From a virus, in IMG/VR virus record IMGVR_UViG_3300035670_011573, positions 62,001-126,000 of that record: DNA of 64,000 nucleotides. One strand, given 5' to 3'. Made by a program: the position numbers and the translations under genes. Shown piece after piece: positions 2,150 to 59,378 of this stretch (positions are counted from its first letter, which is position 1; the number at the start of each line of letters is the position of its first letter). The notes beneath the pieces were generated by a model, which saw only the letters and a list, made by a program, of their open reading frames with translations, made no database searches and was not told where the DNA came from.

Positions 2150-5100
2150 GGTGTAATAAACCCAGTTCTATATGTATTCGATGCTTCCACTATATTATTA
2201 GTGGTTAAAGTTGGTGAATAGGAAAGCAAAACCACATTGCTATAATTTGTATTTGGTGCGGAATTAATTACAATATTGTTACTAATTATAACATTTCTTG
2301 TCTCTGATGCTGCTGACTCTGTAAACATGATGGCCCCCTTCTCCACGCCCATTCTATTTACCAGGCAGTTTGTAAAAAGTATGTTCCCCATTATTAAATT
2401 TGAAATAGTGTTTAATGTTGCCGAATCTTGCTGGCCACAAAAAATAACAAATTCACCAACTTTATTTGGGTCTGGTATAGAGCCATCTATTGAAGTCGGA
2501 CCATCAAAATTAATATTTGAAAACTTATACATGGCGTTTGGCGATACACCAAGTCCGTCCTTAAACAAAGGTTGTGTTAAAGCAAAAACGCATCCAACCG
2601 CAACAAGAAAGTCACTGGTCTTATATGTGAAATCAGAAAAAGATACCCCATGCTCAATAAAATCTGATTCTGTACTAGAACTTGAACCAATTAAAAATAA
2701 GGCAGTTGACATATCTACAGCCCTATCTACTAAGGACTCACCCACCCCTAATGTAGAACCCTTCTTCAAAATGGTGCCAGGACCAGAGCCCTTGATAGAA
2801 ACATCAAAGTCGATAACAATAGTCTCATCAATAACGTAAGTTCCATTTTCAATTAAAATAGTCGGTGGACTTATATTTGGAAACATTCTAGAAAATCTTT
2901 TGGAATATTGAACAGCAGAATATAAATCTGTAAAATGAGAGTGTGCTATATTGTTAGATACCTTAATATCGCCCAAAACCTTTAAATCTAAATTATCAAT
3001 AAATAATCTAAGATCAATATTGGTCGTATTGATTGTATCATTTGATATCTCTGCAAGATAAGCAACATCTTCTTGGAAGAATGGTGAAATTGCATTTCCT
3101 GGATTTGCAGGATCATTTATATATGAACCTACTACAACACATCCTTGCTTGTTAATTGCAACAATATATGTATAAGAAGAATTTACCCTAACATCTTCTA
3201 TACCAGGAAACTCATACCTAATTCCATTAACGACTACCACTCCAGATGTAACGCTAAATATTTGATGGCCATCGTTAATATAAGCTTCATTAACTACCTT
3301 ACATCCCCTGATAATTCCGCTAGCCCTCAGCTCATTTCTAGGGCCTTCAATATATCTCTCTATAAAGGTAGTCCCTATAACTTTATGATCTACGGTACCT
3401 GTTACCTTCTTATCAACCAAAGAAGGTATCCCTGGATCATTGGAAGTTCCTAAAATTCTACCTAGACCAGTTGAAAAAGCACCACGACATAACATATAGT
3501 TATTGCTACTTACTTCACCAAATCCATAAATAGTTGTAGATATTGATGTAGTAGGTAATGTACTGGCAGATACACTCAATGTTATAAAAGAAAATCCGTC
3601 ATTTGCTAAAATATTATAGATTCCACTTGTTCCAACAAAAACTGGTTGGCCTGGCTGTAAGCTAAGATCAGTTAATGTTGCGTATCCTGCGGTATCTATA
3701 TTAAGTGTTGCTGTCTCATCAGATAAGATAAATCCTTTTGAAACATCTGAAATAACTGCATAAAAAGAACCAGAAATAATACTGCCTTCTATTTCCAACC
3801 TTTTTGATTGAAAAATGTTTTTATTTTCATCCATAAAAACATCAAATAAGATGGTTCCATCAGCAGTTCCAATTTCTTCAAAAGTAAATTCATCTATTGG
3901 TGCCGTAACTCTAAGGATATGAAATACACTAGCATCATCTAGCTCTCCAAGGAATTGGGAACCTGCCAAATCAAAATAAACAATATCATTTGAAATAGAT
4001 TTTATTCTATAAGTTCCATCATCCGAAATTTCACTAGAACCAGCTATGGCCACCAAGTCACCTACCCTGGCTCCTAATTCAACAAATTTACCACTAAATA
4101 ATTGTGCAGACAAACCACCTACTGTTAACTTTACATCTGCACCAGTTAAAGTTTTTACTACTCCAAAATTTTTAAGAATTGAGCCATTTAAAAATAAAGA
4201 AGCACCAGAAGTTCCTTCGTAAGTAACGTCTAATATATCTGTAAATCCCAAGTCAGAAGTTCCATCATTAGATGGTGCTGCTGAAATCTTTATTGTTCTA
4301 AGCTTTACATCAGAAGATATGTTGGGGATATTATGAGAGATTGCCAGTTCTTGACAATTACTTATCTTAACTGGAAAAGCTGTAATGTTAAGATGCTGAT
4401 CTACTGACTGGTCATTTATTTTTTGAACAATAGAATCCAGTGATTGCTCTGCAATAGTTGAATTATAAGTTTCTAATGTAAAAGGTACTTCATCAATTTC
4501 AATTATAAAATTATGATTTGTTGCAGTTATATTGCTGGGCTTTATATTTTTAGATATTATTGTTGCACAATCTGGATTTAAAATCTGAACATCTGGTGTA
4601 TTTGTTTTGTTAGCACGTGGTCTAGTTACGGTAGCAAACCCTGCTGGATTATAACTAGTATATCCATTTTTATTTACTTTAATTGTTAAACCAGAAGTAG
4701 AAATATATTTGGGACCACCATAAACTTCAACTTCTTGTAAAAGTAGTCCAGACAACTTAACTGACTTTATTTGATAAGTTATATTATCTTCTTCATTACT
4801 GGAGCCAGATAAAGTTAACAAATCGTATTGGTTAATTTCGGCAATTGGTTCTTTTGGTGTTGATAAAATAAAGGTAGTTGTAGAACTGCCAGATGAATAT
4901 AGATAAGTTACAGATGTGATATCCAATAATAATTTAGAAAAGGTATTTGATTCAAATGCACTATTTACCTTACCATTTCTAACACGACCGTTGGATGCTA
5001 AATTTGTTAGGGTGTCTTTAAATGAAAAGTCTTCTAGATTGGCCAGGACCTCTACTGCACTTTGTAAATCATTAACAGTAGATAGCGGTGGTGTATTTGC

Positions 5101-5730
5101 ATTATCAAAAAATATTTGTGATGCTACATGTGAATTATTTATACTGGAGATATTAGCGCCGCTGTAATTAATATGAGAATTATAAATCTCTTGTAAAGTA
5201 TTTTGTAGGGTATTAGATTCCAAATCTAATGTAGCAATATCAGATGGTATTGAATCAGCAGCATCAACTTTTATTGAATTTGCTTTGTGGCTATTTAAAG
5301 CATTTGGTTCTAAGTGTATAGCTAATCTAACAGAAAGATCCTCTATAGCTTGTTTTATAGAATCTATTTCTGAATCGAGTATAGATATTTCACTTTGTAG
5401 TAATTGCGTTGGAAAATCTAATCTTAACTTGGACTCACGTATAGCAGCAACCTTGGAAACATCGGAATCAATAATTGGACCAGCCAGGACGTTTGCCCTA
5501 TCCAGTGCTTCTTTTAGCAAGTTACCATTAGAATCTAGCGAAGTAGCTAACCTGTTAGAAAGCGTATTGCCAGTAGCACCCTGAGGATTTATGCCTAAAG
5601 TTTTTTCAATATTGAATATAGCAGAACGAAGGCTGTTGATAACATCAGAGCCTATTTCTGTAATATTATCTCTGACCGGTGGGATTTCTGTTGATGTATC
5701 TAGTTTTTGTGGATACTTAGAAGATGGCAT
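2146..5730 (-). CDS. Fibre-like virion protein with C-terminal beta-helix, paralogue A, 1194 aa
   Basis: This is a long beta-rich protein. The first 135 residues nearly match those of the next upstream gene (SKYPQ.LDTS, SDVINSLRSAIFNIEKTLG, LDFPTQLLQ), so the two are paralogues sharing an attachment-type N-terminus. From about residue 925 both share a segment with FSRMFP/FSSLFP, then ENGTY or KSGTH and SIKGSGPGT, typical of a pectate-lyase-like right-handed beta-helix as used by tail spikes. No catalytic residues were identified. It is 240 residues shorter than its partner and lacks the partner's C-terminal domain. Start ATG 5730 overlaps the preceding stop as TAATG. A fibre or baseplate spike role is inferred. 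Confidence 0.65.
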   Translation of the reverse strand: MPSSKYPQKLDTSTEIPPVRDNITEIGSDVINSLRSAIFNIEKTLGINPQGATGNTLSNRLATSLDSNGNLLKEALDRANVLAGPIIDSDVSKVAAIRESKLRLDFPTQLLQSEISILDSEIDSIKQAIEDLSVRLAIHLEPNALNSHKANSIKVDAADSIPSDIATLDLESNTLQNTLQEIYNSHINYSGANISSINNSHVASQIFFDNANTPPLSTVNDLQSAVEVLANLEDFSFKDTLTNLASNGRVRNGKVNSAFESNTFSKLLLDITSVTYLYSSGSSTTTFILSTPKEPIAEINQYDLLTLSGSSNEEDNITYQIKSVKLSGLLLQEVEVYGGPKYISTSGLTIKVNKNGYTSYNPAGFATVTRPRANKTNTPDVQILNPDCATIISKNIKPSNITATNHNFIIEIDEVPFTLETYNSTIAEQSLDSIVQKINDQSVDQHLNITAFPVKISNCQELAISHNIPNISSDVKLRTIKISAAPSNDGTSDLGFTDILDVTYEGTSGASLFLNGSILKNFGVVKTLTGADVKLTVGGLSAQLFSGKFVELGARVGDLVAIAGSSEISDDGTYRIKSISNDIVYFDLAGSQFLGELDDASVFHILRVTAPIDEFTFEEIGTADGTILFDVFMDENKNIFQSKRLEIEGSIISGSFYAVISDVSKGFILSDETATLNIDTAGYATLTDLSLQPGQPVFVGTSGIYNILANDGFSFITLSVSASTLPTTSISTTIYGFGEVSSNNYMLCRGAFSTGLGRILGTSNDPGIPSLVDKKVTGTVDHKVIGTTFIERYIEGPRNELRASGIIRGCKVVNEAYINDGHQIFSVTSGVVVVNGIRYEFPGIEDVRVNSSYTYIVAINKQGCVVVGSYINDPANPGNAISPFFQEDVAYLAEISNDTINTTNIDLRLFIDNLDLKVLGDIKVSNNIAHSHFTDLYSAVQYSKRFSRMFPNISPPTILIENGTYVIDETIVIDFDVSIKGSGPGTILKKGSTLGVGESLVDRAVDMSTALFLIGSSSSTESDFIEHGVSFSDFTYKTSDFLVAVGCVFALTQPLFKDGLGVSPNAMYKFSNINFDGPTSIDGSIPDPNKVGEFVIFCGQQDSATLNTISNLIMGNILFTNCLVNRMGVEKGAIMFTESAASETRNVIISNNIVINSAPNTNYSNVVLLSYSPTLTTNNIVEASNTYRTGFITP

Positions 5731-8700
5731 TATAATAGTCCTAAAGCTTCTGAAATATTGTTAAATTCAAAGTAAGCCTTTATATAAAAGAAGTCTATGT
5801 AGCTTAAATCATTGTGACTTAACTCTATGAAATAAAAGCTGTCGTCTGAAATAATCTCGTCAACCCCGGTGAAGTTGACGATGTTTAAAGCACCACTAAC
5901 TACAGCACCTGTGCTAATAGTATTTGTGTAATGGTTTACTTTGATGTTTATGGGTGGTAATGAAGGCGAAGTCTTAAAAATACTGCTTAATGTTGCTGTT
6001 ATTAAAGTATTTGGACTTAGCTTGAGTCCTACCATGAAATTAGTTAATTTACATCCAGCAGGTAGACGATCTAAGATTAGAGAAGTAGATTGACCTACTG
6101 GTGTCCTAGATGCTGTTAGTGTATAAGAGTAAGCGCCGACCGACAGAGATGACTGAGCGTGTGTTGCGGTAGATGAAGTTAAACCATCAGTAACACTTAC
6201 ACAATTTGAGAATCTATATGTTTGTGAGAATGACTTCGTTGTTAGATAACTAAAATCATCCTCTGTTCTAACCAACCCCTTAGCATAAAGGTTTGAGTTT
6301 GCATGTATAATTCCACCAACACGTAAGTCTTTACTAATCCTATCGGACCAAGAACCCAAACCAGAATAAATTGAAGGTCTAGAACCATCTGCCGTCGCCA
6401 CAGTTCCTGTTGCTGTATTTCCTGAAATGGTAATATTTGAACCAGAATCTGCGCTGTTAAAAGTAACTATATCGATATTTATTAATGATGTTGTACTGGA
6501 CTCTGCAACAAATCTGTTGTTTGTTATAGATATGTTTTTGGTTTCATTTGCAGATGAAAAGATGATTGCAGAGCCAGATGTATCTGCAGGATCTGTTATA
6601 AAGCTACAATTACTGATTGATAAATTACCCTTGCTTGTAGTTGTATCATCAAATTCTACTGACAATATAGAACTAAATTTAAATGATGCATCTATAGGAT
6701 TTGGTGATTCAAAGTTTTGATGATCAAAAGTAATGTTGTCTATTGATATTAAAAATGGCAAATTGTCTGAACCATCTTTTATGTTTAAGTCAAAGCAAGT
6801 AATCTTTGAGTTATTCATTTTGAAGTTACTAAAGGTATAATTTCCCTTGTCTATTTTTTCAATAGGTACCGTATGCGATGCAAAACCTTTTCCGCACAAT
6901 ATAAAGGTTCCCTTGTATGTATAGGTTACATCTGTATAGATGTATTTGTTTCTTAACACAACCTCGGTAGAATCACCCTCGCCATATATAGAAACAGGAA
7001 AGTCTATTACCAGGCCGGCCTTTGCTAGGGCATCTACCAGCTCAGTGGTTGTTGTTATTGATGATTGCGAGGCCCAATCCGCATAAGATAGGTTTGGTTC
7101 AAAAACTACCTCTACATTATGGGTTCCTGATTTTAGATGAATAGCAGGAACACCAGCCTTGGGAAATAAAGATGAAAATCTTTTTGCATATTTAACAGCT
7201 TCGCCTAATTCTGAAAAATGACCCATTCCTATTTGCGGACTAACTGTTATTGAGTTTAGTAATTTTAAGTCCAAGTTATCAACAAATAACCTGAGGTCTA
7301 TATTATAGATACTAGTTCCATCCCACTCCAAAGTGGCTAATGGACAAGCTTCTAGATATTCTAACGGACTTAAACAACTTGGGGTTGATGATTCTACAAT
7401 TATTTGGCCATCTTCATTTACATAAATAAATATTTTGTCAATAACAGCAGAATCTATATGTGTTATAAAATTTGTAGTCTTTGGAATTTTTATTCTTTTT
7501 CCTCTAACATAGCAAGTTCCGCTTTCTATGTTGAATGTAAAGTATCCAGAAGTTAAAACCGGGCTTGTTATTTCCAAACCATTAACTACACCATTAGATC
7601 TTAACTCAGCCCTTGGTTTATTTAAAAGGTTTTCCTTAGCACTGGTAGATAAATCATTTTCACTGATCAAACCAAAATCTGTTTTCTTAATTGCTCTTGA
7701 AGAATATTCATAACCAACAATGCTTCCATTGCCAGTATAGTTGTTGTATGGAAACCTAGCTATTTTTAAATTACTATCCGTGTTTAATCCATCAAAACCA
7801 TACAACGTCATATTTATTTCTGTTGACAACATAGATGTTATTTTAGAGACAACATCTGCAACGCTAGGTATATAAAATTTAAACCTTAGATCTTTTATTC
7901 CAGAAGTAATCCAAAAGTAATTATTGTCACCATAAACATCTACTTCTTTACCACCATCAAGTGAAAGTGTAATGAAGTCTATATTATTCTTTATGTTTAA
8001 AGTAAAGTTTTCTTCAGTAAGTTCACCATCAAAATCTAACAAGGTAATCAAGGACTTTATTCCAAATAATAAAACCGTATACTCTACCCTTTTATCTGCA
8101 ACTAAGTCCCGGTCTTCGTTTAAGAAGATGTCAAATAGCGAACCACCAAAGGTGCTGGATACTTTATCAAAAGTATAATTATCTAGATTATAGGTGTTAG
8201 AAAATACCTTAAAGTTTGTTAAATCATCTGAGGAGCCCAAGAACCCTGATGGTAGCTGGGCAGCAGAAATAGTTAACTGGTTACTAGATACTGATTGTAT
8301 AACATAAGTTCCATTATCATTACTATTAGTTGCGTTGGTAATGATCAAAAGATCTTGATTTTTAATACCTCTTTTTAAGAAGTCAACTTGTTGATCTGTA
8401 TTGGTCACAATATTAGATAGTGATAAAAAGATGAGTGAATTACTATCTAGCTTGGACTTTAATCCAGTAAAAGGTTTACCACCAATATAATATTGCGTTC
8501 CAAATTTAGAATAGACAGGTAAATCTTCAACATGAGAAAATCCGCAAGAATCAATAGCATCATCTGAACCTCTAGATATTGTAATGTAATGACTTACAGT
8601 GTCTGTATCTGGCAAGTTATATACTATTGCTATTTCTGGCTGTAAATCTTCATAAAAAACCTTATAAGCCAAAAAATCATAAGCACCTTCTGCACATTGC

Positions 8701-32406: not shown

Positions 32407-35262
32407 TCACATTCTTAGTCTAGGTGCAAATGCTAGCGTTGGCTTTGGCATGTTAGATTTTTCTTTTGTACCAGGTTTAACTGTAAAACCCTGTGTAGAA
32501 TCAAACTTCCAAGCCATATAGGCATACATTAAAGCCATCAACCCATCGTTAGGCGTTGAGCCTTTAATATAAGTTTTTACTTCTTGACCACCTTTATTTC
32601 TAATGGCAACACCCATTGATGTACAATGATCTATTAACCATTCGATATATTCATAGCTTTTCCAAGGGAACCTAATCTTACCCTTTTTCATTTTTTCAAA
32701 GATCTCCTCAATCATAAGATCTTTATTATAAGTAATCATCAATTCATCTTCACGATATTTAATTGGATTTAAAAGAGCGGCACTACCTTGTGCTCCTAAA
32801 AATCTATCACCAAATCCATCATTCATCTGCAATTCTCTAACAACATCTTGTCCGAAGAAAAAGTCGGAGACCCCGCGCTTGACAGAAAATCTTTTGAATA
32901 ACTCATTAACTGTGGCTTTCTTATATCCGAAAGTTCTTTCTCTTAAAATGTGCGCATGCTCTATTTGAAGTGTTCCATCACCAATGTCAGATAAGATTAC
33001 TGCACAAGAATAAGATTGACCCTTAGATTCTTCGTCAGTTTTATCTCCCCAGTCTATTCCTAGGTAGGCAGGTCTTTCATTCGCTAATATTTTCTTTGCA
33101 AAGAATCTTTCAGAATCTTTACAGAATGCTTCTATATGGGTTCTGGTCAATGGCATTCCACCACTAGAGAAAAATTCTCCAACAACTTCATTATTCCAAA
33201 CACGGTCTGATTGATTTGGATTATTTTCTGGCATCAAAGAGTTTATATATTCACGATTAAGGTATGGAATATATAACTGATTAATGTGAAATCCTACATA
33301 CTTAGACTCTTCTTCATTTCTGGAGGGTGCCCAGCAACCTCTTTCAATAGCATCAATCTTGTGCTGAATAAAACCGCAAATAGGACATTTGATATTAAAA
33401 CCGCTAATCCAAATTTCTTTCCAAGCATCACTACCTGGCTGATAAAATGGAAAAGTTTTTTCACAATTTTTACAGCCAAGATGATAAAACCTTTGGTCTG
33501 ACATTTCCCAGGTAAGTTCAAACCAGCTACCTTTTTCTTTTGGTGTTCCAAAGTAGACCTGGACACCACGACCTACTGGACCATATTTTGCGGCGGTCAG
33601 AGTCTTGGTAGAGTTACCTATTGCAAGTCCCATCATATCTTGACAATTATGGACAACAGGACCGCCAGCATATTTGCTATTTTTAGTTGGAGACAATATA
33701 AAATTATGATTTTCTTCGACCTCTATATCATATACAACTTCTTGCTTTTCTAATTTTTTTATTTTATCTACAATTAATATAGAATAATTTTTAAAATTAT
33801 TATCCCAAGTATAATTGTCAAATTCATTTAAGAAAAGATTTCCAAACTTATAAGTCATTGTGGGATGAATATATTTTTTAATTAAGTTATATAGATTAAA
33901 AAATCCTGCTTTGTTAAAATAAATATAAAAATATCCATCAGACTGTTTTTTATAATGACAATCTATACCTAGACTTTTAAATTTATTTACAAATCTAATC
34001 TGAGAGTCTTCATCAAAAGAACATGTTGATAAATATGCAGCTCCAGATGTAGGACCCCAAGATTTTATTAGAGAACCATCATCCATAAACCATATTGCAA
34101 GACCTCTCTCATCAATTTCATCGAGAACCCATTGTGGACAACTATATTTAGTTTTAGGAAAATTATTGTTAATGGCAAATAATTTTGATGCAAAGCTAAC
34201 CGCTTCTTTCTTTGAAAAACCATTTTGTTTGATATATTTAATTTGAGAATTAAACATATCAGATTTCCAATTACAATATTCTTTTTGCTTTATGCCATGT
34301 ACAACCTGTAGTCTATATACATTGTCTTTATATCTACTAAGATGACCATCTCCTAAAAATGAACCTAGAGCGATTTGCTTTTGGTCATCATTAATTGCTC
34401 TAATTTTCAAATCAGAATCTACAGAGGATATAATCAAATCATTATTGCTTAAGTTACATGCTTCTTTCCAACCACCAGTTGTTAAAAACTTATGATTTGG
34501 AGTACATTTTATCTCTCTATTACCAATATATAGCTTCAATAGTTCCCTTGGACTTCTCTTCCAGGCGTTAGTTATTTTTTTATATTCAAAACGTTCCATT
34601 TTTTCATTATAAGATTTAACCATAGGAAGTTGATTTCCACTTTTAAATTCTTGATATAGTTTTCCAATTTTAACTTTACCGCCATCCGTCTCTATAAATT
34701 GATGGTATGGAAAACATTCGTCATAAAAGGCAACGTCCAATGTCATACCACGAACCCTGTCTGCATCTGCACCGATACTTTCAACCCATAACGTACCAGT
34801 GTTAAATTGCTTCATGGTTAAATTATCAACAGCATTTATTGTTCTTAATTTATTTTTATTGACGAAATCATCTTTTGCACTTCTAACAAGATTTTCTAAT
34901 TTATCTTGTGTAAATCTTTTTACTTGCGCTAATGCAGGAAATAAATGCGCTACACGAATTGGTGGCGTTGTAAAAAGACCACTATTAGTAAAGTAAAGGT
35001 CTAAGGCACCAGCCATCATAGTTGCACCAACCTGACGGCCTTTCTTAATAATTACAGGCTTACCCTCCTTCTTTGGAGCTTGAAGGGCAACATAACGATA
35101 GATATCAGCCATAAATTTCCAGCCATTGCCCACAATACGAAAAGGCTCACCATCCAAGGTAAGATTATTTTGGATGAAATGAGCCGGATCGTAATCTAAG
35201 AATGTTGTTTTTAGCTGCGAAAATATTTTATTTTGTTCTTGCTTAAAATCACTTCCTGCCAT
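32407..35262 (-). CDS. Terminase large subunit with an in-frame intein, 951 aa precursor
   Basis: The terminase cuts and pumps phage DNA into the prohead. Walker A is GRQVGAT (residues 75-81) and Walker B is VAFYDE (177-182); the C-terminal nuclease part starts at GIDWGDKTDEES. An intein of 357 residues lies between Glu182 and Cys540, directly after the Walker B Glu, in the ATPase centre. The spliced protein would be 594 residues, a normal size for this family. A zinc-like CxxC...CPIC cluster follows the second extein part (CKNCEKTF, CPICGF). ATG 35262 has AGGAAAG upstream. It precedes the portal gene, as usual. Confidence 0.9.
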   Translation of the reverse strand: MAGSDFKQEQNKIFSQLKTTFLDYDPAHFIQNNLTLDGEPFRIVGNGWKFMADIYRYVALQAPKKEGKPVIIKKGRQVGATMMAGALDLYFTNSGLFTTPPIRVAHLFPALAQVKRFTQDKLENLVRSAKDDFVNKNKLRTINAVDNLTMKQFNTGTLWVESIGADADRVRGMTLDVAFYDECFPYHQFIETDGGKVKIGKLYQEFKSGNQLPMVKSYNEKMERFEYKKITNAWKRSPRELLKLYIGNREIKCTPNHKFLTTGGWKEACNLSNNDLIISSVDSDLKIRAINDDQKQIALGSFLGDGHLSRYKDNVYRLQVVHGIKQKEYCNWKSDMFNSQIKYIKQNGFSKKEAVSFASKLFAINNNFPKTKYSCPQWVLDEIDERGLAIWFMDDGSLIKSWGPTSGAAYLSTCSFDEDSQIRFVNKFKSLGIDCHYKKQSDGYFYIYFNKAGFFNLYNLIKKYIHPTMTYKFGNLFLNEFDNYTWDNNFKNYSILIVDKIKKLEKQEVVYDIEVEENHNFILSPTKNSKYAGGPVVHNCQDMMGLAIGNSTKTLTAAKYGPVGRGVQVYFGTPKEKGSWFELTWEMSDQRFYHLGCKNCEKTFPFYQPGSDAWKEIWISGFNIKCPICGFIQHKIDAIERGCWAPSRNEEESKYVGFHINQLYIPYLNREYINSLMPENNPNQSDRVWNNEVVGEFFSSGGMPLTRTHIEAFCKDSERFFAKKILANERPAYLGIDWGDKTDEESKGQSYSCAVILSDIGDGTLQIEHAHILRERTFGYKKATVNELFKRFSVKRGVSDFFFGQDVVRELQMNDGFGDRFLGAQGSAALLNPIKYREDELMITYNKDLMIEEIFEKMKKGKIRFPWKSYEYIEWLIDHCTSMGVAIRNKGGQEVKTYIKGSTPNDGLMALMYAYMAWKFDSTQGFTVKPGTKEKSNMPKPTLAFAPRLRM
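33646..34716 (-). other. Terminase intein with LAGLIDADG-type endonuclease, 357 aa
   Basis: Precursor residues 183-539. Block A begins with Cys183 (CFPYHQFIETD), block B contains KCTPNHKFL, and the C-terminus ends VVYDIEVEENHNF ... GPVVHN followed by extein Cys540. The two dodecapeptide-like motifs are LGSFLGDGHLSR and LAIWFMDDGSL, both with the acidic residues of a LAGLIDADG homing endonuclease, so it may still be able to home. Splicing residues Cys1, His-Asn at the end and Cys+1 are all present, so the intein looks functional. Confidence 0.88.
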
Positions 35263-50487: not shown

Positions 50488-51017
50488 CAGGTACTCCTAT
50501 TGATACCCTTGAACCCACCACGCTTAGAATGAATCGGTGCCTCTTTTCCAAGATTAGGGTTGGTTAAAACCCTCTGTTGATGTAACTTTCTTAGTCGCTC
50601 AGCCTTGTTAGATAAATCTTCTGGTAGAACATTACCATCATCATCTAACTGATCTAAGTGTTCTGCGTATTCTTTTTCAATCTCACTACGAATATCATCC
50701 TCTTCAACATAGTCAGATTCTTCAGAAGTGGCAATCACCTGACGGGCTGGTTTAGCACTTAAAGAGATATCTTCTAAAATCTGCTTCCCGATCCCACCCT
50801 TTAATTCATTAAAGAAGAATAAAGAAATGTCATAAATCTGTGATTCGGTGAAAGAAGAAGAAAAACGTTCGGCACTAATTTTGTTCTGAATTAAAGTAAT
50901 AATATTGGTGTCACGATTTGAAAAAAGGCTAGAACCACAAGAAGGGCATAAATTCTTCATCAAGGCAAATCGCATTGATTCGTTAACGCCAAAACCACAT
51001 TCATTACAGTGCATCAT
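50487..51017 (-). CDS. Zinc-ribbon protein, 176 aa
   Basis: The N-terminus has CNECG (Cys4, Cys7) and CPSCG (around 24-27), a classic two-CxxC zinc ribbon, followed by helical and acidic regions (SDYVEEDDIRSEIEKEY) and a basic C-terminus. Such ribbons are common in phage replication/transcription cofactors. ATG 51017 overlaps the end of the DnaE C-terminal half. Its precise role is unknown. Confidence 0.55.
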   Translation of the reverse strand: MMHCNECGFGVNESMRFALMKNLCPSCGSSLFSNRDTNIITLIQNKISAERFSSSFTESQIYDISLFFFNELKGGIGKQILEDISLSAKPARQVIATSEESDYVEEDDIRSEIEKEYAEHLDQLDDDGNVLPEDLSNKAERLRKLHQQRVLTNPNLGKEAPIHSKRGGFKGINRST

Positions 51018-52048
51018 ACTTTTTTTCCTAAGGCACTTTCAAGTAGGGAAAGTGACAAACCCTTTTGTTCCATATATTCATCTACCTTACAAATAGCCCT
51101 GATTGGTAAGCCGTCAGTTAGAACCGTCATATATTTATCATAATCATCTTGCCAAACGGTTAATTCGGCGGTGGAACCTTCTGCATCCTCGACTAAATAC
51201 TTGGCAAATTTTCTACCTATATTTTTACCACGTTTAATTTTAAATTCCTTAACCATAGCCTTGATAATTACTTCAATCTTAACCTTAGTTCCAGAAGGAA
51301 TCTGGGGGATCTTTCTCAATGGCGTAACATTAGAATCCTGCCGAAAGAAACCTTTGAAAACCTCATGGAGAGAACCGCTGATTGTTCTGCCCAAAACCTC
51401 TCTCTCGTTGGTGAGCAGATCCTTGCGCTCCCATTCTTCATGGTACGTAGGGAATACAATGTCATCAATAGTTTTTCCTTTCTTTTTTTCTTTATTGATC
51501 AAATCACGATAATGTGAGTGGTTTTCAAAAATATCCTTTCTGGTTCTTCCAAAAGAAGTAAAAGCACCAGCCTTAGACATTGACTCCATGACTCTTTTAT
51601 TTACTACCCTTGCATTTGTTCTAAAGAAAAAATCCTCAATCGAAGCAAAGGGTTGCAATGAGATGATTTCTTGAATTGCAGTATCGCCAACACCCTTAAT
51701 CGCTGTTAAGCCTGTAACAATAGTTCCATCTTCCTTGGTAACATAACTGCCGGTGCTTTTGTTAACATCTGGTGGGGTAATGGAAATGCCCATCTTGGAG
51801 CATTCGGAAATATATTCTAAGGTTTTATCAGAGTTAGGATCCTCGCTGTTAAGCAATGCACACATAAATTGTGTAGGATAATGACATCTCAACCAAGCAG
51901 TATAATAAGAAATATGTGAATAAGAAACTGAGTGAGAATTAGAAGTAAGCATACCGTTAGATAAATAATATTGGTGATCAGGATGCTCTACTTCTAGATC
52001 ATAAGTATCCATCATCCCAACTTCTTTTACTGATTTAATTTTAGCCAA
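51014..52048 (-). CDS. dnaE: DNA polymerase III alpha, C-terminal half with split-intein C part
   Basis: TTG 52048 is the start, with AGGAGG directly upstream. Residues 1-37 are the intein C part (see separate entry); residues 38-344 are the C-extein, beginning SHSVSYSHISYYTAWLRCHY, which matches the C-family polymerase element that normally follows GFN(K/R). The remainder carries a helix-hairpin-helix segment (LTAIKGVGDTAI) and an OB-like fold near the C-terminus (GTKVKIEVIIKAMV). On its own it lacks the palm domain. Joined to the N half it gives a DnaE of about 1089 residues. The preceding gene is the second methyltransferase. Confidence 0.9.
   Translation of the reverse strand: MAKIKSVKEVGMMDTYDLEVEHPDHQYYLSNGMLTSNSHSVSYSHISYYTAWLRCHYPTQFMCALLNSEDPNSDKTLEYISECSKMGISITPPDVNKSTGSYVTKEDGTIVTGLTAIKGVGDTAIQEIISLQPFASIEDFFFRTNARVVNKRVMESMSKAGAFTSFGRTRKDIFENHSHYRDLINKEKKKGKTIDDIVFPTYHEEWERKDLLTNEREVLGRTISGSLHEVFKGFFRQDSNVTPLRKIPQIPSGTKVKIEVIIKAMVKEFKIKRGKNIGRKFAKYLVEDAEGSTAELTVWQDDYDKYMTVLTDGLPIRAICKVDEYMEQKGLSLSLLESALGKKV
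51938..52048 (-). other. Split intein, C-terminal part (Int-C)
   Basis: 37 residues: MAKIKSVKEVG, then TYDLEVEHPDHQYYL, then NGMLTSN before extein Ser. The length (about 36) matches known split-DnaE Int-C. Block F is TYDLEVE, block G ends with LTSN rather than HN; penultimate His is replaced by Ser. Confidence 0.85.
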
Positions 52049-52056
52049 AAAACCTC

Positions 52057-52863
52057 CTAGTTTGGTTCTGGTGTCCCATTTATTTCTAGATTCAGAAATT
52101 CATCCATCTCTTCTGAACTAGTACTGGGTCCAAAAATTCTTTCGTTAGCTATTTTAATATACTTCTCTTCTTGTTCAATTAAGATAAAATCTCTATCTAA
52201 ATTCTTGCAGGCTACACCCGTCGTTCCACTTCCCGCGCAATTATCTAAAACTATTTCCCCAGGGTTGGTATAAGTCTTTATTAAATATTCAAATAAAGAA
52301 ACCGGCTTCACCGTAGGATGAGAACCGCTAGTATCGGTATTAAATTTCTGCCAAGAAGACGGGACCCTTAATTCTGGAACTTCGACAATACCACGGCCTT
52401 TGAATTTTCTATAGTTTTCAGACCTGGTGTTATGATCTTTACGATATCGCTTTGTATGCTTCTTACCAGTGGCAGATGTTCTTTCCTGCATCTGCTTGTT
52501 ATAAGTCCATTTTCCTCTTGAAAAAATTAGAACCTGCTCATGCTCTTTGAAAGGTTCTCTGACTGTATTTGCAAAATTACTTCCACGATTTTTAATCCAA
52601 ATCCATTCGTGACGAAACATCTTTGGGTTAGACATAACTAAAGCACTAGAAAAAGGTTGGGAAGCAGTCAGGGCTATAACTGCATTAGGTTTTGTAATTC
52701 TTTTATATTGTTCCCAAAGTTTATCAAAAGGGATTACTGTATCCCATTTGTTTTGGGTAATTCCATAAGGTAAATCACAAAGAATCATATCTATGGAACC
52801 ATCATCTATCTTCTTCATTACTTCTAAGCAATCACCCTGATATATCTTGTTTTTTTCTAGCAT
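52057..52863 (-). CDS. Beta-class DNA methyltransferase, second copy, 268 aa
   Basis: Motif IV is DLPYG (about residues 31-35) in DMILCDLPYGITQ, and motif I is CAGSGTTG (about 212), so the order is beta-class as in the other copy. The two copies share N-terminal MLE.N..Y.GDCLEVMKKIDD and the motif I region, but differ between, where target recognition sits, so they may recognise different sites. It lies between TadG-like gene and the DnaE C half. ATG 52863; the ribosome site is weak (GGGA). Unaccompanied by a restriction enzyme. Confidence 0.85.
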   Translation of the reverse strand: MLEKNKIYQGDCLEVMKKIDDGSIDMILCDLPYGITQNKWDTVIPFDKLWEQYKRITKPNAVIALTASQPFSSALVMSNPKMFRHEWIWIKNRGSNFANTVREPFKEHEQVLIFSRGKWTYNKQMQERTSATGKKHTKRYRKDHNTRSENYRKFKGRGIVEVPELRVPSSWQKFNTDTSGSHPTVKPVSLFEYLIKTYTNPGEIVLDNCAGSGTTGVACKNLDRDFILIEQEEKYIKIANERIFGPSTSSEEMDEFLNLEINGTPEPN

Positions 52864-52880
52864 TTCAAAATCCCGTAGGT

Positions 52881-52901
52881 TAGGTATAGCTAGTATACCT
52901 A
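52881..52901. promoter_or_regulatory. Dyad-symmetric operator-like site upstream of the second methyltransferase
   Basis: TAGGTATA (5-base centre) TATACCTA, perfect 8-bp arms, about 20 bases from the methyltransferase start. Possible regulator binding site or a short hairpin; no partner identified. Confidence 0.35.
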
Positions 52902-52982
52902 GAGCAATCCTAATATTACTCTATTTTTAGAACCAAGTTTGGAAAACTTAAACCAACTTCATTTATACTCAAAAATATATTT

Positions 52983-54236
52983 TTATTGAACTATTCTTAG
53001 CTTAGTTGTGCTGACGTTAGTTATTTCACAATCTTGTTCTTCATCACCACGAGGTACCTGGCTTGATAATCCAGAAGCTAAAGTAATGTTGTGATTGCCA
53101 TTAGCGTTAATAACATCAGCAACTATAGAACCATAAAAAGAAGCATTGCCATTTGGGTAGACTGTTGATTCTGGTGCATAAATGGTTCCATTAAAAGTGC
53201 TAGAGCCATTTATTCTAACTACTCTTTCACCAATAACCCTTATCTCAAAACACTCCGGATGATCTGCATTGCCAGTAACACCACCATTTAAATTTACATT
53301 ACCATTAACATATAAAATGGTTGGACTAGTACATCCATCAGATGTGCCAGAAATATTAATCATTTCTCTTGCCGTTCTTTGCTCCAAATCACCATCAACA
53401 TAATAAACTTCACCTTCTTGAAGTGTAGTGACTATAGTTGTATTAGAACCCCTACCCACACGAACACCATTAGGTAGGGCATGATAACTTTCAGGATAAT
53501 CCACTGGACTGATTGGAATTTCCATACCCATAGGTGTAGAGTCGCCTGTGAAGTTATAAGCAGAACCCCTAGAGTCTATGCAAGGGGTTCCTACATCATA
53601 TTCACAATCTGGACCCATATGAATATCTATTCCGTTTTGTACATTAAGACTACCGCCCAAAGTTATCCCACCGGAGTTAGTACAAGCAGATGCGCCGGCA
53701 GTTACCTCATCTATTCTTAGATCAAAATTTCCACTTAGTTCCAATTGAGAATTGGCAAAGATTAAGCAGGGCCAATCACCATCGTTAGTAGGGACACACT
53801 CTTCTTCTAAGGTAGCAACCTTACCAGCAATAGAAGTTGCATGAACATGGTAAGTATAGTATCCAAACATTCCACCAAATATAGATGGAATATTGGATTC
53901 TGTAGTTATTTTTACATAATCACCATTATCCATATCTAAGATCCACTCACCACCTTGATTAAAGGTACCAATTTCAGTGGTAACATTTTCAGAGGTTATA
54001 GTGGCTCCATAGACGGTATGGCTTGTAGCAATAGAGGTTGCTTCTTCAGATACAGTAGTAGTGTTATTACTACCATCATCTTCACTGCCAAGATAGGCGG
54101 CGGAAGAAATTGCGGAAGTATCTGCGGCAGTTTGCAACTGCGCCTTAGAATAAGTCATAAGACCATAATCTATGGAAAGCGCTGCAAATCCAATAAATAT
54201 GGGAAGTGAAATACTAAAATAAGTAGCAGTAGACAT
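52983..54236 (-). CDS. TadE/TadG-like pilus-assembly protein, 417 aa
   Basis: The N-terminal segment YFSISLPIFIGFAALSIDYG is a membrane helix with the pilin-like pattern, followed by KAQLQTAADTSAIS, matching the Tad putative Flp pilus-assembly domain (RAQLQNAADAAAL in many bacteria). The rest is a beta-rich extracytoplasmic region with repeated Gly/Asn (NGNVNLNGG, NGSSTFNG) and several Cys, similar to polymer-forming adhesin-like domains. This is a bacterial secretion/pilus-type protein and unusual in a phage. A box TATAAATA lies 20 bases before ATG 54236. Host-surface modification or superinfection exclusion is speculation. Confidence 0.7.
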   Translation of the reverse strand: MSTATYFSISLPIFIGFAALSIDYGLMTYSKAQLQTAADTSAISSAAYLGSEDDGSNNTTTVSEEATSIATSHTVYGATITSENVTTEIGTFNQGGEWILDMDNGDYVKITTESNIPSIFGGMFGYYTYHVHATSIAGKVATLEEECVPTNDGDWPCLIFANSQLELSGNFDLRIDEVTAGASACTNSGGITLGGSLNVQNGIDIHMGPDCEYDVGTPCIDSRGSAYNFTGDSTPMGMEIPISPVDYPESYHALPNGVRVGRGSNTTIVTTLQEGEVYYVDGDLEQRTAREMINISGTSDGCTSPTILYVNGNVNLNGGVTGNADHPECFEIRVIGERVVRINGSSTFNGTIYAPESTVYPNGNASFYGSIVADVINANGNHNITLASGLSSQVPRGDEEQDCEITNVSTTKLRIVQ

Positions 54237-54256
54237 TTTGTATACCTAGAATTTGT

Positions 54257-54264
54257 TATTTATA
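54257..54264 (-). promoter_or_regulatory. TATAAATA box upstream of the TadG-like gene
   Basis: Matches the T4 late promoter consensus on the minus strand, in the short intergenic gap, with 20 bases to the ATG. Chance occurrence in AT-rich DNA is possible. Confidence 0.35.
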
Positions 54265-54277
54265 GTTACAATAAATA

Positions 54278-54298
54278 TTGAAAAATATTCTTTTTCAA
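54278..54298 (-). terminator. Weak hairpin at the end of tnpB
   Basis: Perfect 8-bp stem TTGAAAAA / TTTTTCAA with a 5-base loop; it overlaps the TGA stop of tnpB and is followed by TATTTAT. Could terminate tnpB or be part of an element end. Confidence 0.4.
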
Positions 54299-55509
54299 GA
54301 TTTAATCTCTGTTTTCTGGGCAACAGGGACTATACACTCCTGTTCTAAAGGTAACCAATAAAATCCTGTTCTATTAATCCCCTTTAATCGTTGTTCCCTG
54401 CTAATTGCAGGCAACTGAAGGGCAATATTCTGGGATGCATTTAAATCCGAGTTTCCTGTGTATCCACAGGATCTGCATTTAAATAACAATCCTTTCCTAT
54501 TCCCCTTACGAACCCAACCGCACTGGAAACACCTTTGACTTGTGTAAGTAGGGCTAACCTTAATAATCTGGACACCAGCATCTTTAAGTTTAGAATCCAA
54601 CTTTTCAAATAGTTCCCTGTAATTCCAATGAGAAAGGTTGCGGCTTGACTTTCTTCCCTTTCTCATATTTCTAATGTTCTCCCTTCTAACTACCTTTATA
54701 TTCTGTATATTCAGTCTGTTTACAGACCAATTTATGTAGTTAGTACGGTGTGCTTCTGCTCTCCTAAATCCCTTGGAACCCTTTTTCTTCCTTGCTAATT
54801 TTTGACAAATAGCTTTGTAATTGTGACCATGGTTATCCTTGTCAACTACTTGACCATTTGAACAAGACAAAATAGAATTTTGCCCTATATCTATCCCTAG
54901 GGTTTCCCCAGATTCCCTTTCTCTAGGTTCCTCCAATTCAAAACCAAACGTTATGGAATCTTTTGATAACCTAACTCCTGCTTTTAGTGTTCCTGAGGCT
55001 AACATTTTATTGAAGTGCTTTGTTTTCTTAAAAGGTATCTTTATAGTTAGCTTATTACCAAGAGAAGATAGGGTTACCCAACCATCGAAGATGGTATCAT
55101 TATCCAAGTCTATTTTAACAAACCTAGAATCTAACTCTGGTTTAATATCTCCAACTAAAGGCTTTGAAGCAATATTTTTGTTATAGATTTGCTGAATTTT
55201 TCTGGCTTTCTTAAACATACCTTGAGCATTGAACTTATTTATTTGCCAAAGCCTTCGGCTTTGTTTAGCTTTAGTTCCACGGACAATAGCAGAAGCCTGT
55301 TTACCAGCAGCTTGCAATGCTCTTGCAGATAACCAAGTTTGAATCTGGGAAGTTATTCTCTTATCAAGCAGGGCAGGAATTTTATCCATATCCCAAAGGG
55401 GATCTATGAAAAGGGTAGTAACCCTCTGGTATTCTGCAATAAAAAGGGAAAGGTTTTCCATTTTAACCTTTCTGCAGAATTTGGTAGTTACTTTAGTTGA
55501 CTTTACCAT
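54295..55509 (-). CDS. tnpB: TnpB (IS200/IS605 OrfB-type RNA-guided nuclease), 404 aa
   Basis: The RuvC-like triad is visible as GIDIGQN (Asp207), RRENIRNM (Glu277) and DLNASQN (Asp355), and the zinc ribbon as CFQC (327, 330) and CRSC (345, 348). Length is normal for TnpB (about 400). TnpB uses a short RNA from its own 3' end to cut DNA beside a target motif. No tnpA and no clear element ends are visible, so it is probably a solo copy. ATG 55509 keeps the usual N-terminal strand; an internal ATG 55461 has a better ribosome site (AAAGG). It lies between the DnaE halves. Confidence 0.9.
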   Translation of the reverse strand: MVKSTKVTTKFCRKVKMENLSLFIAEYQRVTTLFIDPLWDMDKIPALLDKRITSQIQTWLSARALQAAGKQASAIVRGTKAKQSRRLWQINKFNAQGMFKKARKIQQIYNKNIASKPLVGDIKPELDSRFVKIDLDNDTIFDGWVTLSSLGNKLTIKIPFKKTKHFNKMLASGTLKAGVRLSKDSITFGFELEEPRERESGETLGIDIGQNSILSCSNGQVVDKDNHGHNYKAICQKLARKKKGSKGFRRAEAHRTNYINWSVNRLNIQNIKVVRRENIRNMRKGRKSSRNLSHWNYRELFEKLDSKLKDAGVQIIKVSPTYTSQRCFQCGWVRKGNRKGLLFKCRSCGYTGNSDLNASQNIALQLPAISREQRLKGINRTGFYWLPLEQECIVPVAQKTEIKS

Positions 55510-55568
55510 GATTTATATAGAAATATTACTATAATTTTAAATTTATTTTAATAAATAATATAAAGGAA

Positions 55569-56027
55569 TCAAATACATTCTTCAGAGCAGAAGTTACCCT
55601 CTTCACCACATACTATAAAAGTATTAGGAATTACACCTTTACATTTATAAGTCTTCATTTTTTTAGTCCATTCCTCTTTGGTTTGGCATTCTTCTAAGGA
55701 AATTAATAAAGCCTCCACTTCGTTGGTTTCTTTTAAAATAAAAGTCATCCAGCCTTGGAAGTTACCAACCCGCCAAACATTTGCACCGAAATGGTAAGCA
55801 TACAAATCTTCTTTTTGAAAGTGTTCCCTATTTAATTTTATTAAGCCACCTAATGTAGCATGGTCACTGAAGTCTGGAATGGCACCATCCGGTGGCAACA
55901 AGCCTTCATCATTAATCCTACCACAAATATTTATATCAAGTGGAAAAAACCAACGCATACCTGGCAACCACTTCCAATTCTTACAGATTAAAGTTTTGAG
56001 TCCTAAATCTATTTTGTCTTGCAGCAT
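55569..56027 (-). CDS. Hypothetical protein, 152 aa
   Basis: The family is not recognised. Trp/Tyr-rich globular protein with KNWKWLPGMRW near the start and a Cys-containing end (CGEEGNFCSEEC). No membrane helix. It sits in the island between the two DnaE halves. The start ATG 56027 has only a weak ribosome site. Confidence 0.5.
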   Translation of the reverse strand: MLQDKIDLGLKTLICKNWKWLPGMRWFFPLDINICGRINDEGLLPPDGAIPDFSDHATLGGLIKLNREHFQKEDLYAYHFGANVWRVGNFQGWMTFILKETNEVEALLISLEECQTKEEWTKKMKTYKCKGVIPNTFIVCGEEGNFCSEECI

Positions 56028-56053
56028 GTTATTTATCTTTTGTCCAAATTATT

Positions 56054-56374
56054 TTAGTTACTATCTAATGCTGCTCTAACTGCTGCATCTTTAGATTCTA
56101 GCAATTTTCTAAGTGCAACTTCTGTTTCAGGGCTATAAGGCGCTCGTCTAGCAACTTGTTCGGCCAACTCAGCAAATGGTCTTGAAACCTCTTGTAACTT
56201 TGGTGGTAAATGATCAAATTTGAAATATTTTAAAGTTGGTGATAATTGGTATTGACTATAAACAACCAAATCATTTAAAGTCGGTACTGGCATAGAAACC
56301 ATAACCTCACCAGAACGAACCTTGGCACATCCATTTGCCATACAATCTGGATTTGCACAACAGCATGTAATCAT
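56054..56374 (-). CDS. Small protein: Cys-rich N-terminus plus helical hairpin, 106 aa
   Basis: N-terminal CCCANPDC...C may bind metal. Residues 54-104 form two helices (HLPPKLQEVSRPFAELAEQ, then VALRKLLESKDAAVRA). The HLPP...LRKLLE.KDAAVRA pattern is common in small proteins of many phages. It recalls the helical-hairpin family that includes anti-CBASS Acb2, though with a different sequence; this is speculative. ATG 56374 has GGGAGG upstream. Confidence 0.5.
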   Translation of the reverse strand: MITCCCANPDCMANGCAKVRSGEVMVSMPVPTLNDLVVYSQYQLSPTLKYFKFDHLPPKLQEVSRPFAELAEQVARRAPYSPETEVALRKLLESKDAAVRAALDSN

Positions 56375-56419
56375 ATAAACTCCTCCCTTTAAATTGTTTT
56401 ACAAATTAAACTAAGATTT

Positions 56420-56716
56420 TCATCCATAATGTTCGCTATTTTTAATTGCTGTAATTATATCTTCATAAGCAGCAGCGCACAGCGGAATGTCAGCAGATTC
56501 CATTCTTTTGTTGAGAAATTCTAAGATTAATTTTCTCTCTCGCATTTCTCCCAAAACCTCACTGGCTTCTGGTGGTGGCCAAGACGATCTTGCTTCATAA
56601 TCCTGAATTATATTATCTGCTTTGCTTACTAGTTGCCAGACCCATTCTGCTGCAAACTCTTTATCCTCCAGCCTAAGAAAAAACTCCTCAATAAAATCAT
56701 CTTTTGTGTACAGCAT
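56420..56716 (-). CDS. Hypothetical protein, 98 aa
   Basis: The start ATG 56716 has GAGG upstream and lies just past the stop of the DnaE N half; an earlier start would overlap it. Helical, acidic, with FLRLEDKEFAAEWVWQL near the N-terminus. Not recognised. Confidence 0.45.
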   Translation of the reverse strand: MLYTKDDFIEEFFLRLEDKEFAAEWVWQLVSKADNIIQDYEARSSWPPPEASEVLGEMRERKLILEFLNKRMESADIPLCAAAYEDIITAIKNSEHYG

Positions 56717-56723
56717 AACACCC

Positions 56724-59378
56724 TCACTTATTAACAACTATTTCTAATTTATCTTCTAAAATTTTCCAGAGCGGCAACATTTCGCCTGTATTAGTTCTAA
56801 ATTTATGATTGATTGTACAAACTGTTTTTGAGCCATCGTCTAATTCTACTTCAAATACTTTTAATTTTCCGTGATAATGATTATCCTTGACAGGGATCAT
56901 AATATCTTGTCCCGTTTCTTCATTTCTGCTACGAACCCAACAGCCTGGTTCAACATTTCTGATTGGAATATCTTTCCACTCTCTAGCATCAGAATCTCTG
57001 TATACCCGGATTAATTCATCAAACTTCAAGGAGCGATTAAAGCCATATAATCCGAATGGTTCGATTTGCTCATCCCAAATTCTTTTGGCTTCTTCATATT
57101 TCATACCAGATACTTTCATGCAGTCAGCAATAAAGTTAGCCTCTGTTTTTAAAACTAGATCTGGATCTTTACCTTTTAATTTTGTAATTTTCCTTAGTGC
57201 ATCTGCTTGGTTAAGATCCCAACCTGCACAATCCTTGGCAATGGTCATCATGCCTTCTTCATAAAGAGAAACACCATAAGTCTTCTTTAATGAATTTTCC
57301 ATTTTAGGATGGATGTATTCGATTTCTTCTACTCCAAGTTTTCTGTTGATATAATCGTTCCTCTGTTCTGGTGAACAAGAAGGTCTGCCTAGTGCATTAA
57401 TGTCAGAAATTTCTTCAATATTTTTTGGCTTAATCTTCATACAAAGTGGGGTAAGTGATGACTCCAATTGAAAGACGCCGGCAGTTTCACCACGTCCAAT
57501 CATTTTAAAAGTTTCTGTATCACCTAAGGGAATATCTTCAATAGTTATTTTTTTACTTTTGGTTTCTTGAATTATATTAAAGGTATCAGTAATTACGTTT
57601 AATGTATTTAGACCAAGAAGATCCATTTTAACTAGACCGAAATCTTCGCACCTAGTTTTCTCCCATTGGGTAACCACCAAGCCGGTTTCTGCATCAATTC
57701 TAAGGGGGACAATCTCGTATAGTGGACGATCACTAATTACAACCCCAGCGGCATGAACACTCCAATTCCTTGTCAGTCCTTGAAGCTTGCAGGCATTTTC
57801 ATATAGTTCTGGATATTTCTTCATATATGAAGCAAACTCTTTACTTTCTTTCATTGCCTGTTCTACTGTCTCTGTATCTGGCATGATAGAAGTTAAATGA
57901 TTTGCAATTTTAAAGGCTTCTGATTTATCACCACCTAGCTCTAGACTTCTAGCTACGTCTTTAATAATCACCTTTGGTGACAGTGTAGACCAATTGCTGA
58001 TGGAAGCGACTTTATCTTCCCCATATTTTTCTTTCAGATATTCTTTCACCTTGGCCGGGTCTGCGAAGTCTGAGTCAATATCTGGAAAGCTTTTCTTTTC
58101 TTTATTCTGAAATCTTTCAAACAGGAGGTCGTACTTAATGGGGTCAACTGTAGTGATGCCAGTTAAAAATGCAACAATAGAGCCGGCACAACTTCCTCTT
58201 GCAGGCGAGCAAGGCATTCCTTGTGACTTAGCCCAATTTACGAAGTCTGCCACAATAAGCATATAAGAAGAAAAGTTTTTCTCTTCCATTACACTTAATT
58301 CTTTTTTAACCCTATCCCAGTATTCTTTCTTCTGTTCATCTTCTAGATGGCCTAATTTTTCTTTAAATCCGGCCATACATTTATATCTCAAATAGGACTT
58401 ATCTTCTTCTATATCAGGACAAACCTTGGAAGACCAACCCTTAAATTTTTGATATTCGTTTTCTTTTTGAACTGGAAACTTAGGAAGAATCGCACCCTTT
58501 GGTTCAATATAGGTAGGATTATCACAGGCGTTTAAAATCTTGATAGAATTCTCCATGCCTTTCTTGGCAACATCTGGACCAAAGAAGGATGTAATTTCTT
58601 CATATGTTTTAAGGTACATATCTTGCACGCCATAACGAAATCTATCAGGATCGTTGATTGGCTTTTTGTCTTTAATAGCTAACATAAAATCGTGATACTT
58701 GGCATGGTCTTTATCTCGATAGTGGGCATCACAAGTAATAACATAGGGGATGCTCTTATCATGCGATAGTCGAATCATTGCTTCATTTAGCTTTCTCTGG
58801 CTAACTTCCTTGCCAGTTTTGCCTGTAGCCTGGAGGTCATGTGGCTGGATTTCAAGAAAGAATCTATCTTTAAAAATAGCATTAAATCGATCAAGATAAC
58901 AAAGAGCTTCTTGCTCATTTCCTTCTGTAATTAAAGTTTTGGCAATCAAACCATTAGAACAAGCGGTAAGGGCAATAACACCCTGGTTGAACTGCTCGAT
59001 ATGTTCCCAAGAAATTCTGGGCGTTTGTTTACCCATATACCCAGAGACTTGGTTGCGGTAAGCCTCATAATTTAGTCGTAGAATATTTCGATAACCTACT
59101 TCATTTTGTGCAAGTAGAACAAGGTGATAATTCTTCTTATCAGATAGATCTGGTGCGAAGTACGCCTCCATACCTGGAATTAACTTAACGCCATGCTTCT
59201 TACTTGCTTTCCAAGCATCAAAAATAGCTGTCATAGTACCATGATCTGTGACTGCTACGCCTGGATGATCTACTTCTTTAGCGCGAATAAAAAGGTCTTC
59301 CACATCATTCATACCATCCAAAGGTGAACCCAATTCAGTATGGTTGTGCAAAGACACAAATGGTCCTGAAATACCCAT
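56724..59378 (-). CDS. dnaE: DNA polymerase III alpha, N-terminal half with split-intein N part, 884 aa
   Basis: The N-terminal PHP domain carries HNHTE and DHGTM. The catalytic region has PARGSCAGSIVAFLTG (residues 392-407), PDIDSDF (432-438) with the paired Asp and KMDLLGL (584-590) with the third, so the polymerase active site appears intact. The protein ends in the split-intein N part from Ser783. Alone it lacks the C-terminal HhH/OB domains. The other half is encoded about 4.7 kb away on the same strand, so the enzyme must be built by trans-splicing: GFNR joined to SHSVSY. ATG 59378 has CTGGAGG upstream. No separate epsilon proofreader is visible. Confidence 0.95.
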   Translation of the reverse strand: MGISGPFVSLHNHTELGSPLDGMNDVEDLFIRAKEVDHPGVAVTDHGTMTAIFDAWKASKKHGVKLIPGMEAYFAPDLSDKKNYHLVLLAQNEVGYRNILRLNYEAYRNQVSGYMGKQTPRISWEHIEQFNQGVIALTACSNGLIAKTLITEGNEQEALCYLDRFNAIFKDRFFLEIQPHDLQATGKTGKEVSQRKLNEAMIRLSHDKSIPYVITCDAHYRDKDHAKYHDFMLAIKDKKPINDPDRFRYGVQDMYLKTYEEITSFFGPDVAKKGMENSIKILNACDNPTYIEPKGAILPKFPVQKENEYQKFKGWSSKVCPDIEEDKSYLRYKCMAGFKEKLGHLEDEQKKEYWDRVKKELSVMEEKNFSSYMLIVADFVNWAKSQGMPCSPARGSCAGSIVAFLTGITTVDPIKYDLLFERFQNKEKKSFPDIDSDFADPAKVKEYLKEKYGEDKVASISNWSTLSPKVIIKDVARSLELGGDKSEAFKIANHLTSIMPDTETVEQAMKESKEFASYMKKYPELYENACKLQGLTRNWSVHAAGVVISDRPLYEIVPLRIDAETGLVVTQWEKTRCEDFGLVKMDLLGLNTLNVITDTFNIIQETKSKKITIEDIPLGDTETFKMIGRGETAGVFQLESSLTPLCMKIKPKNIEEISDINALGRPSCSPEQRNDYINRKLGVEEIEYIHPKMENSLKKTYGVSLYEEGMMTIAKDCAGWDLNQADALRKITKLKGKDPDLVLKTEANFIADCMKVSGMKYEEAKRIWDEQIEPFGLYGFNRSLKFDELIRVYRDSDAREWKDIPIRNVEPGCWVRSRNEETGQDIMIPVKDNHYHGKLKVFEVELDDGSKTVCTINHKFRTNTGEMLPLWKILEDKLEIVVNK
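56727..57032 (-). other. Split intein, N-terminal part (Int-N)
   Basis: 102 residues from Ser783 to the stop. Block A is SLKFDELIRV with Ser rather than Cys as first residue; block B contains VCTINHKFRTNTGE with the TxxH pattern. No endonuclease domain. Length matches split-DnaE Int-N (about 100-123). Confidence 0.85.

Follow-up and report, generated by a model that had tools for sequence, protein, structure and literature searches.

A dnaE gene divided by a split intein in a large phage: probable trans-splicing and loss of a homing nuclease

The divided dnaE and the genes between its halves

The DNA examined in the present study, hereafter the window, is a stretch of 64,000 nucleotides spanning positions 62001-126000 of a virus record of 177,932 bases. 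The first-pass annotation had recognised in it two minus-strand genes encoding the halves of a DnaE polymerase, one ending in a 102-residue intein N part (IntN) and the other beginning with a 37-residue intein C part (IntC), and both open reading frames (ORFs) are present as described (Table 1). The upstream ORF (56724-59378) encodes 884 residues, of which 782 belong to a bacterial-type DnaE and the remainder to the IntN, with a stop codon at 56724-56726. The downstream ORF (51014-52048) encodes the IntC followed by 307 DnaE residues, the end of the intein and the start of the extein reading TSN|S. Domain matches on the N-half comprised PHP, DNA_pol3_alpha and DNA_pol3_finger, while the C-half matched HHH_6, an OB-fold below threshold and the intein_Cterm model, the latter at 16.9 bits against a cut-off of 15.6.

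The alignment to full-length DnaE that had been suggested as a check revealed neither gap nor overlap between the halves. The junction falls at 815|816 of the solved Taq DnaE and at 758|759 of the solved E. coli DnaE, and is equally seamless in comparison with uninterrupted relatives, such that DnaE resumes exactly at SHSVSY after GFNR and the predicted ligated length is, as claimed, 782 + 307 = 1089 residues. No second DnaE, and no other polymerase of the C or A family, turned up in the 177.9-kb record; the absence of another complete copy holds for this record, which may be incomplete. With dnaE in two, an intein part on each half and continuous exteins, the proposed kinship to the class of fractured genes is borne out.

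Table 1 Features of the divided dnaE locus, in window coordinates
Feature	Position	Strand	Remarks
C-extein, 307 aa from Ser+1 (SHSVSY...)	51014..51937	-	Remaining finger, HhH, OB-fold
IntC, 37 aa	51938..52048	-	TTG start 4 nt after AGGAGG; TYDLEVEHPDHQYYLSNGMLTSN; terminal Asn
N6/N4 DNA methyltransferase	52057..52863	-	TAG stop just 5' of the IntC ribosome-binding site
TadE/G-like pilin with ice-binding-like adhesive domain	52983..54236	-	Homologue in the L002 gap
TnpB/Cas12f-like nuclease	54295..55509	-	Missing from the L002 gap
152-aa protein, no assigned function	55569..56027	-	L002 homologue, position swapped
106-aa phrog_1761 protein, no assigned function	56054..56374	-	L002 homologue
98-aa protein, no assigned function	56420..56716	-	ATG shortly after the IntN stop; L002 homologue
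IntN, 102 aa	56727..57032	-	Ser1 start SLKFDELI...; block B TVCTINHKFRT; block GEMLPLWKILEDKLEIV
N-extein, DnaE residues 1-782	57033..59378	-	PHP, polymerase NTPase/palm, most of the finger domain; ends ...YGFNR

The two halves are separated by 4.7 kb of other genes. The same arrangement is found in L002, a clearly distinct phage with an N-extein 93% identical to that of the window, where the gap measures 3.5 kb. Several cargo genes are common to both phages in a different order, with the TnpB-like nuclease and the methyltransferase present in the window only. The TnpB-like gene has no adjoining TnpA and its RuvC-type residues are seemingly intact; it was considered as a replacement for the homing nuclease of related phages (see below) and rejected, there being no evidence for such a role and the gene being missing from L002. 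The presence of TnpB, methyltransferase and pilin genes between the halves could also indicate a misassembly, or a pseudogene that decayed after foreign genes were inserted. Against this, each half has a start site and an intact frame, and the arrangement recurs with differing gap contents in L002, L003 and 19 further independent contigs, to which the near-identical L017, derived from essentially the window phage, can be added; it is therefore no assembly accident, and we regard this explanation as scarcely credible.

A Rfam scan of the region returned no RNA elements, no tRNAs were found in the window, and matches to the portal and GroEL proteins pointed to no host. The phage GroEL (46278-47933, minus strand) shares ~40% or less identity with known phage GroEL, and the terminase large subunit (32407-35262, minus strand) contains a contiguous LAGLIDADG intein extending from YDE|CFPY... 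to ...VVHN|CQDM. The window phage also carries a fractured IMPDH within bases 146000-156000 of the record (L196), with the N-half at 5663-6505 and the C-half at 3888-4562 in L196 coordinates, both on the minus strand. Its split-intein borders are GGG|CLMPTT... and ...FLHN|SICKTR, and a nuclease-like ORF (4522-5616, minus strand) lies between the halves.

Phage relatives, the gap nuclease and splicing competence

Relatives were gathered by scanning viral contigs for the same polymerase. At the exact window site, FNR|SHS, 22 phage loci are split, two phages have contiguous mini-inteins (L040, 145 aa, and L053, 147 aa) and approximately 30 distinct contigs are empty, reading seamlessly FNK|SHS. 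Contiguous inteins occupy the same site in three bacterial MAGs, two of them Pirellulaceae and one Bacteroidota. Among 50,697 GenBank phages no record carried the window intein family; the single match, in MT835601, was to a distant contiguous intein occupying this site. Another intein site, PARG|SAAGS, was observed in related phage DnaE (L032, L036, L038, L040, L033 and L059), where the intein is variously split, a mini-intein or of LAGLIDADG type; in L032 both sites are split, and DnaE is apparently in three pieces.

In ten of the split relatives the gap contains an intact ORF of 322-430 aa, whose product has ROS/MUCR-like zinc fingers and, at its C-terminus, a nuclease in which E-x-D, H and D are invariant; the EDxHD homing endonucleases (PMC3943268) have this motif. 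The gap nuclease of L041 matched the homing endonuclease phrog_9084 (E=2e-11), and a weak match of the gap nuclease to DUF559 was also obtained; comparison of the gap nuclease with solved EDxHD chains in the PDB gave no significant match. In 11 of the 12 loci that keep its start (L006, L032, L036, L037, L041, L049, L051, L060, L075, L078 and L085) the start codon has the same position within IntN, over block B and in the +2 frame. The overlap of IntN and nuclease is an overlapping-gene arrangement kept across divergent phages. The nuclease is broken or reduced to a stub in L036 and L051 and gone from L038, L058, L082 and L087. A free-standing homing endonuclease is likewise absent between the halves of the window and L002, and no homologue of the relatives' gap nuclease was found anywhere in the window's own record.

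The intein is patchily distributed: the extein tree requires at least eight changes (gains or losses) of intein presence, with the empty L004 placed among the split L006 and L032, and the empty L039 sister to the split L036-L038 and L051. L060, L078, L081 and L085 have IntC sequences 62-70% identical and exteins only ~25% identical. Of the contiguous forms, L053 is sister to the split L049, with an N-extein 95% identical, and L040 falls among the split L041, L006 and L032 in the intein trees and still has, in mid-sequence, the Met-Ala-Lys-Ile with which IntC begins. Re-fusion of L040 and L053 from split ancestors after loss of the nuclease would be the simplest interpretation.

The window intein has Ser1, CTINH and SN|S, with the required nucleophiles, block B His and terminal Asn all present. 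Conserved across 24 divergent phage inteins are Ser at position 1 (Cys or Thr in some), the block B His, the terminal TSN and Ser+1. The dN/dS of IntN was approximately 0.14 (window versus L002) and 0.23 (L006 versus L032), rough values with synonymous sites near saturation; going by these ratios, the intein is under constraint. When IntN and IntC were joined as a query, the Npu DnaE intein was recovered (E=2e-13). An AlphaFold model, made for the contiguous homologue L040 and not for the window halves, adopts a HINT fold (pLDDT 93, pTM 0.85) with confidence lowest only at the split/fusion junction, and its best matches among solved structures are the Npu and Ssp DnaE inteins. Trans-splicing of the window halves would be the natural conclusion. 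Alternatively, the intein pieces could be dead or act as a dimerisation clamp, with the DnaE halves associating non-covalently, a scheme to which the polymerase lends itself in that its catalytic aspartates (PDIDSD and KMD motifs, read from the sequence) are all in the N-half. A mere clamp, however, would have no need of Asn and Ser+1, the splicing residues are conserved throughout the 24 inteins under apparent constraint, and the two contiguous mini-intein relatives must splice or else interrupt the finger domain, making non-covalent association very improbable.

Relationship to the cyanobacterial DnaE split inteins

Four intein trees were constructed, each from 55-59 splicing domains and ~137-140 aligned columns. 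Three of them include gp41-type, UvsX (one tree), DnaB-type and GyrB inteins together with the same-site bacterial DnaE inteins. The gp41 and NrdJ sequences (and IMPDH in one tree) served as outgroups only. The phage intein family formed one clade in all four trees (99-100 bootstrap), which joined the cyanobacterial DnaE split inteins with supports of 98/92, 99/94, 89/86 and 97/90. The window intein is sister to, and not inside, the cyanobacterial clade, and is not of gp41 or NrdJ type. It also differs in its insertion point, as the cyanobacterial intein lies before the Cys of CFNKSHS (Y|CFNK) and the window intein at FNR|SHS, with the Arg before the break aligned to the Lys of CFNK; the offset is four residues, and not three as initially annotated. 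The separate insertion at a neighbouring site that had been proposed is thus upheld with respect to the site, but to read it as the arrival of an unrelated intein would be wrong because it groups as the sister of its cyanobacterial DnaE counterpart.

Convergence of two unrelated split inteins on a similar sequence and an equal split point would be compatible with insertion sites four residues apart, with the small number of aligned columns and the one tree at 89/86, and with a split point located where nucleases are usually inserted in inteins. The same split point occurs in the T4-like UvsX split inteins, which rules it out as proof of cyanobacterial kinship. Common ancestry is nevertheless indicated by the other three trees, which include the inteins listed above, and by the Npu and Ssp DnaE inteins being the best PDB matches in both sequence and fold, and we consider convergence unlikely. 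The contiguous bacterial inteins at the window site group with DnaB-type inteins, which rules them out as the source of the phage intein; counting the MT835601 type, three lineages have therefore taken one site.

No cyanobacterial-site IntN was detected in 294 Planctomycetota genomes at E<=1e-8, in a search run without a positive control, and 291 cyanobacterial genomes yielded only weak matches to the phage-type intein (27-48% identity), many of which lay in frames as long as a DnaE N-half. A scan of viral contigs with the cyanobacterial IntC identified 21 viral loci. Most of those examined have a free-standing C-half at the cyanobacterial site, and in several there are phage tail/structural-type genes upstream or between the halves. 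In L179 (2305-4029 and 4001-5239; identical in L182) IntN is fused to a LAGLIDADG nuclease and IntC lies in an overlapping frame, possibly representing a transitional form of the DnaE split intein. L178 (3959-6103) combines two inteins, of which one, split and of cyanobacterial type, precedes CFNK and the other, contiguous and HNH-like, lies four residues further along at the window site. An HNH-like ORF (L179, 1490-2305) was also seen to interrupt DnaE, with flanks reminiscent of a group I intron. In the trees the cyanobacterial inteins fall within the viral ones, and L179 is their sister, with support of 98/82 and 83/84 in two of the trees.

In the usual account (e.g. PMC7765530), the split intein of cyanobacterial DnaE arose when a contiguous intein was broken once. 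Because viruses hold both DnaE sites, the cyanobacterial sequences nest among viral ones and L179/L182 look transitional, the cyanobacterial intein, from which the Npu and Ssp tools derive, may instead have descended from a virus-borne mobile split intein. We regard this as a real but tentative possibility, based on thin sampling of contiguous bacterial DnaE inteins.

Proposed origin and comparison with known systems

The sequences very likely represent a trans-spliced fractured dnaE of a large phage, whose intein descends from a mobile split form that has lost its EDxHD-like nuclease. The two intein pieces would fold into one HINT domain and be excised by an N-O shift at Ser1, transfer to Ser+1, Asn cyclisation and an O-N shift, ligating GFNR to SHSVSY in the full-length DnaE. 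In the ancestor, a mobile split intein, an EDxHD-like homing endonuclease would have stood as a separate gene between the halves; in the window phage the nuclease would have been lost and unrelated genes taken its place. With the nuclease gone and the gap filled, the window allele is therefore probably immobile, and presumably kept because the polymerase needs the intein. Splicing and homing activity, essentiality and this order of events are what we infer from the comparison of relatives.

The phage family appears to span the full cycle of empty site, split with nuclease, nuclease broken, nuclease lost with cargo, and apparent re-fusion. With this unusually complete set of intermediates in living sequences, how split genes arise and whether they can revert can be tested, and the family offers natural Ser1 split inteins, kin of Npu DnaE, for protein ligation.

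The class to which the locus belongs is already known, while its host site and intein family are apparently undescribed in what was searchable. The site is not exclusive to the window phage: it is split in other phages too, and contiguous inteins occupy it in further phages and in Planctomycetota and Bacteroidota. The closest known system is the cyanobacterial DnaE split intein (Ssp, Npu), which resembles that of the window in host gene, fold, intein split point, lack of a nuclease and its sister position in the trees. In contrast, the window intein is inserted four residues downstream and has Ser1/Ser+1 where the cyanobacterial inteins have Cys1/Cys+1, and its halves, in the same orientation, are separated by 4.7 kb in a phage with relatives that still carry the homing nuclease. 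Fractured phage genes with split inteins (gp41-1, IMPDH-1, NrdJ-1) were reportedly described by Dassa et al. in 2009, as cited in PMC6892783. These are alike in that a split intein interrupts a phage gene of DNA metabolism and that relatives have a nuclease standing free between the halves, and the window genome itself contains a fractured IMPDH; here, however, the host gene is dnaE, the nuclease has been lost with cargo in its stead, and the nuclease frame of the relatives overlaps IntN. The fractured uvsX of the T4-like PspYZU05, vB_YenM_TG1 and vB_KpnM_Lion_ER11 shows the order N-half, homing endonuclease, C-half in isolated phages, and the UvsX IntC starts (MKIKSV...) at the same place as that of the window family, but host gene and intein lineage differ. 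The nuclease of the relatives resembles EDxHD endonucleases such as I-Bth0305I (PMC3943268) in its invariant E-x-D, H and D and its DNA-binding zinc fingers, but it gave no significant match to a solved EDxHD chain and is missing from the window itself. Finally, in Pseudomonas phage MIJ3 an intein divides PolB, and a nuclease ORF separates the two parts (PMC6892783), which gives an intein-split phage DNA polymerase like those of the window family, but of the B family and with an HNH nuclease and another intein.
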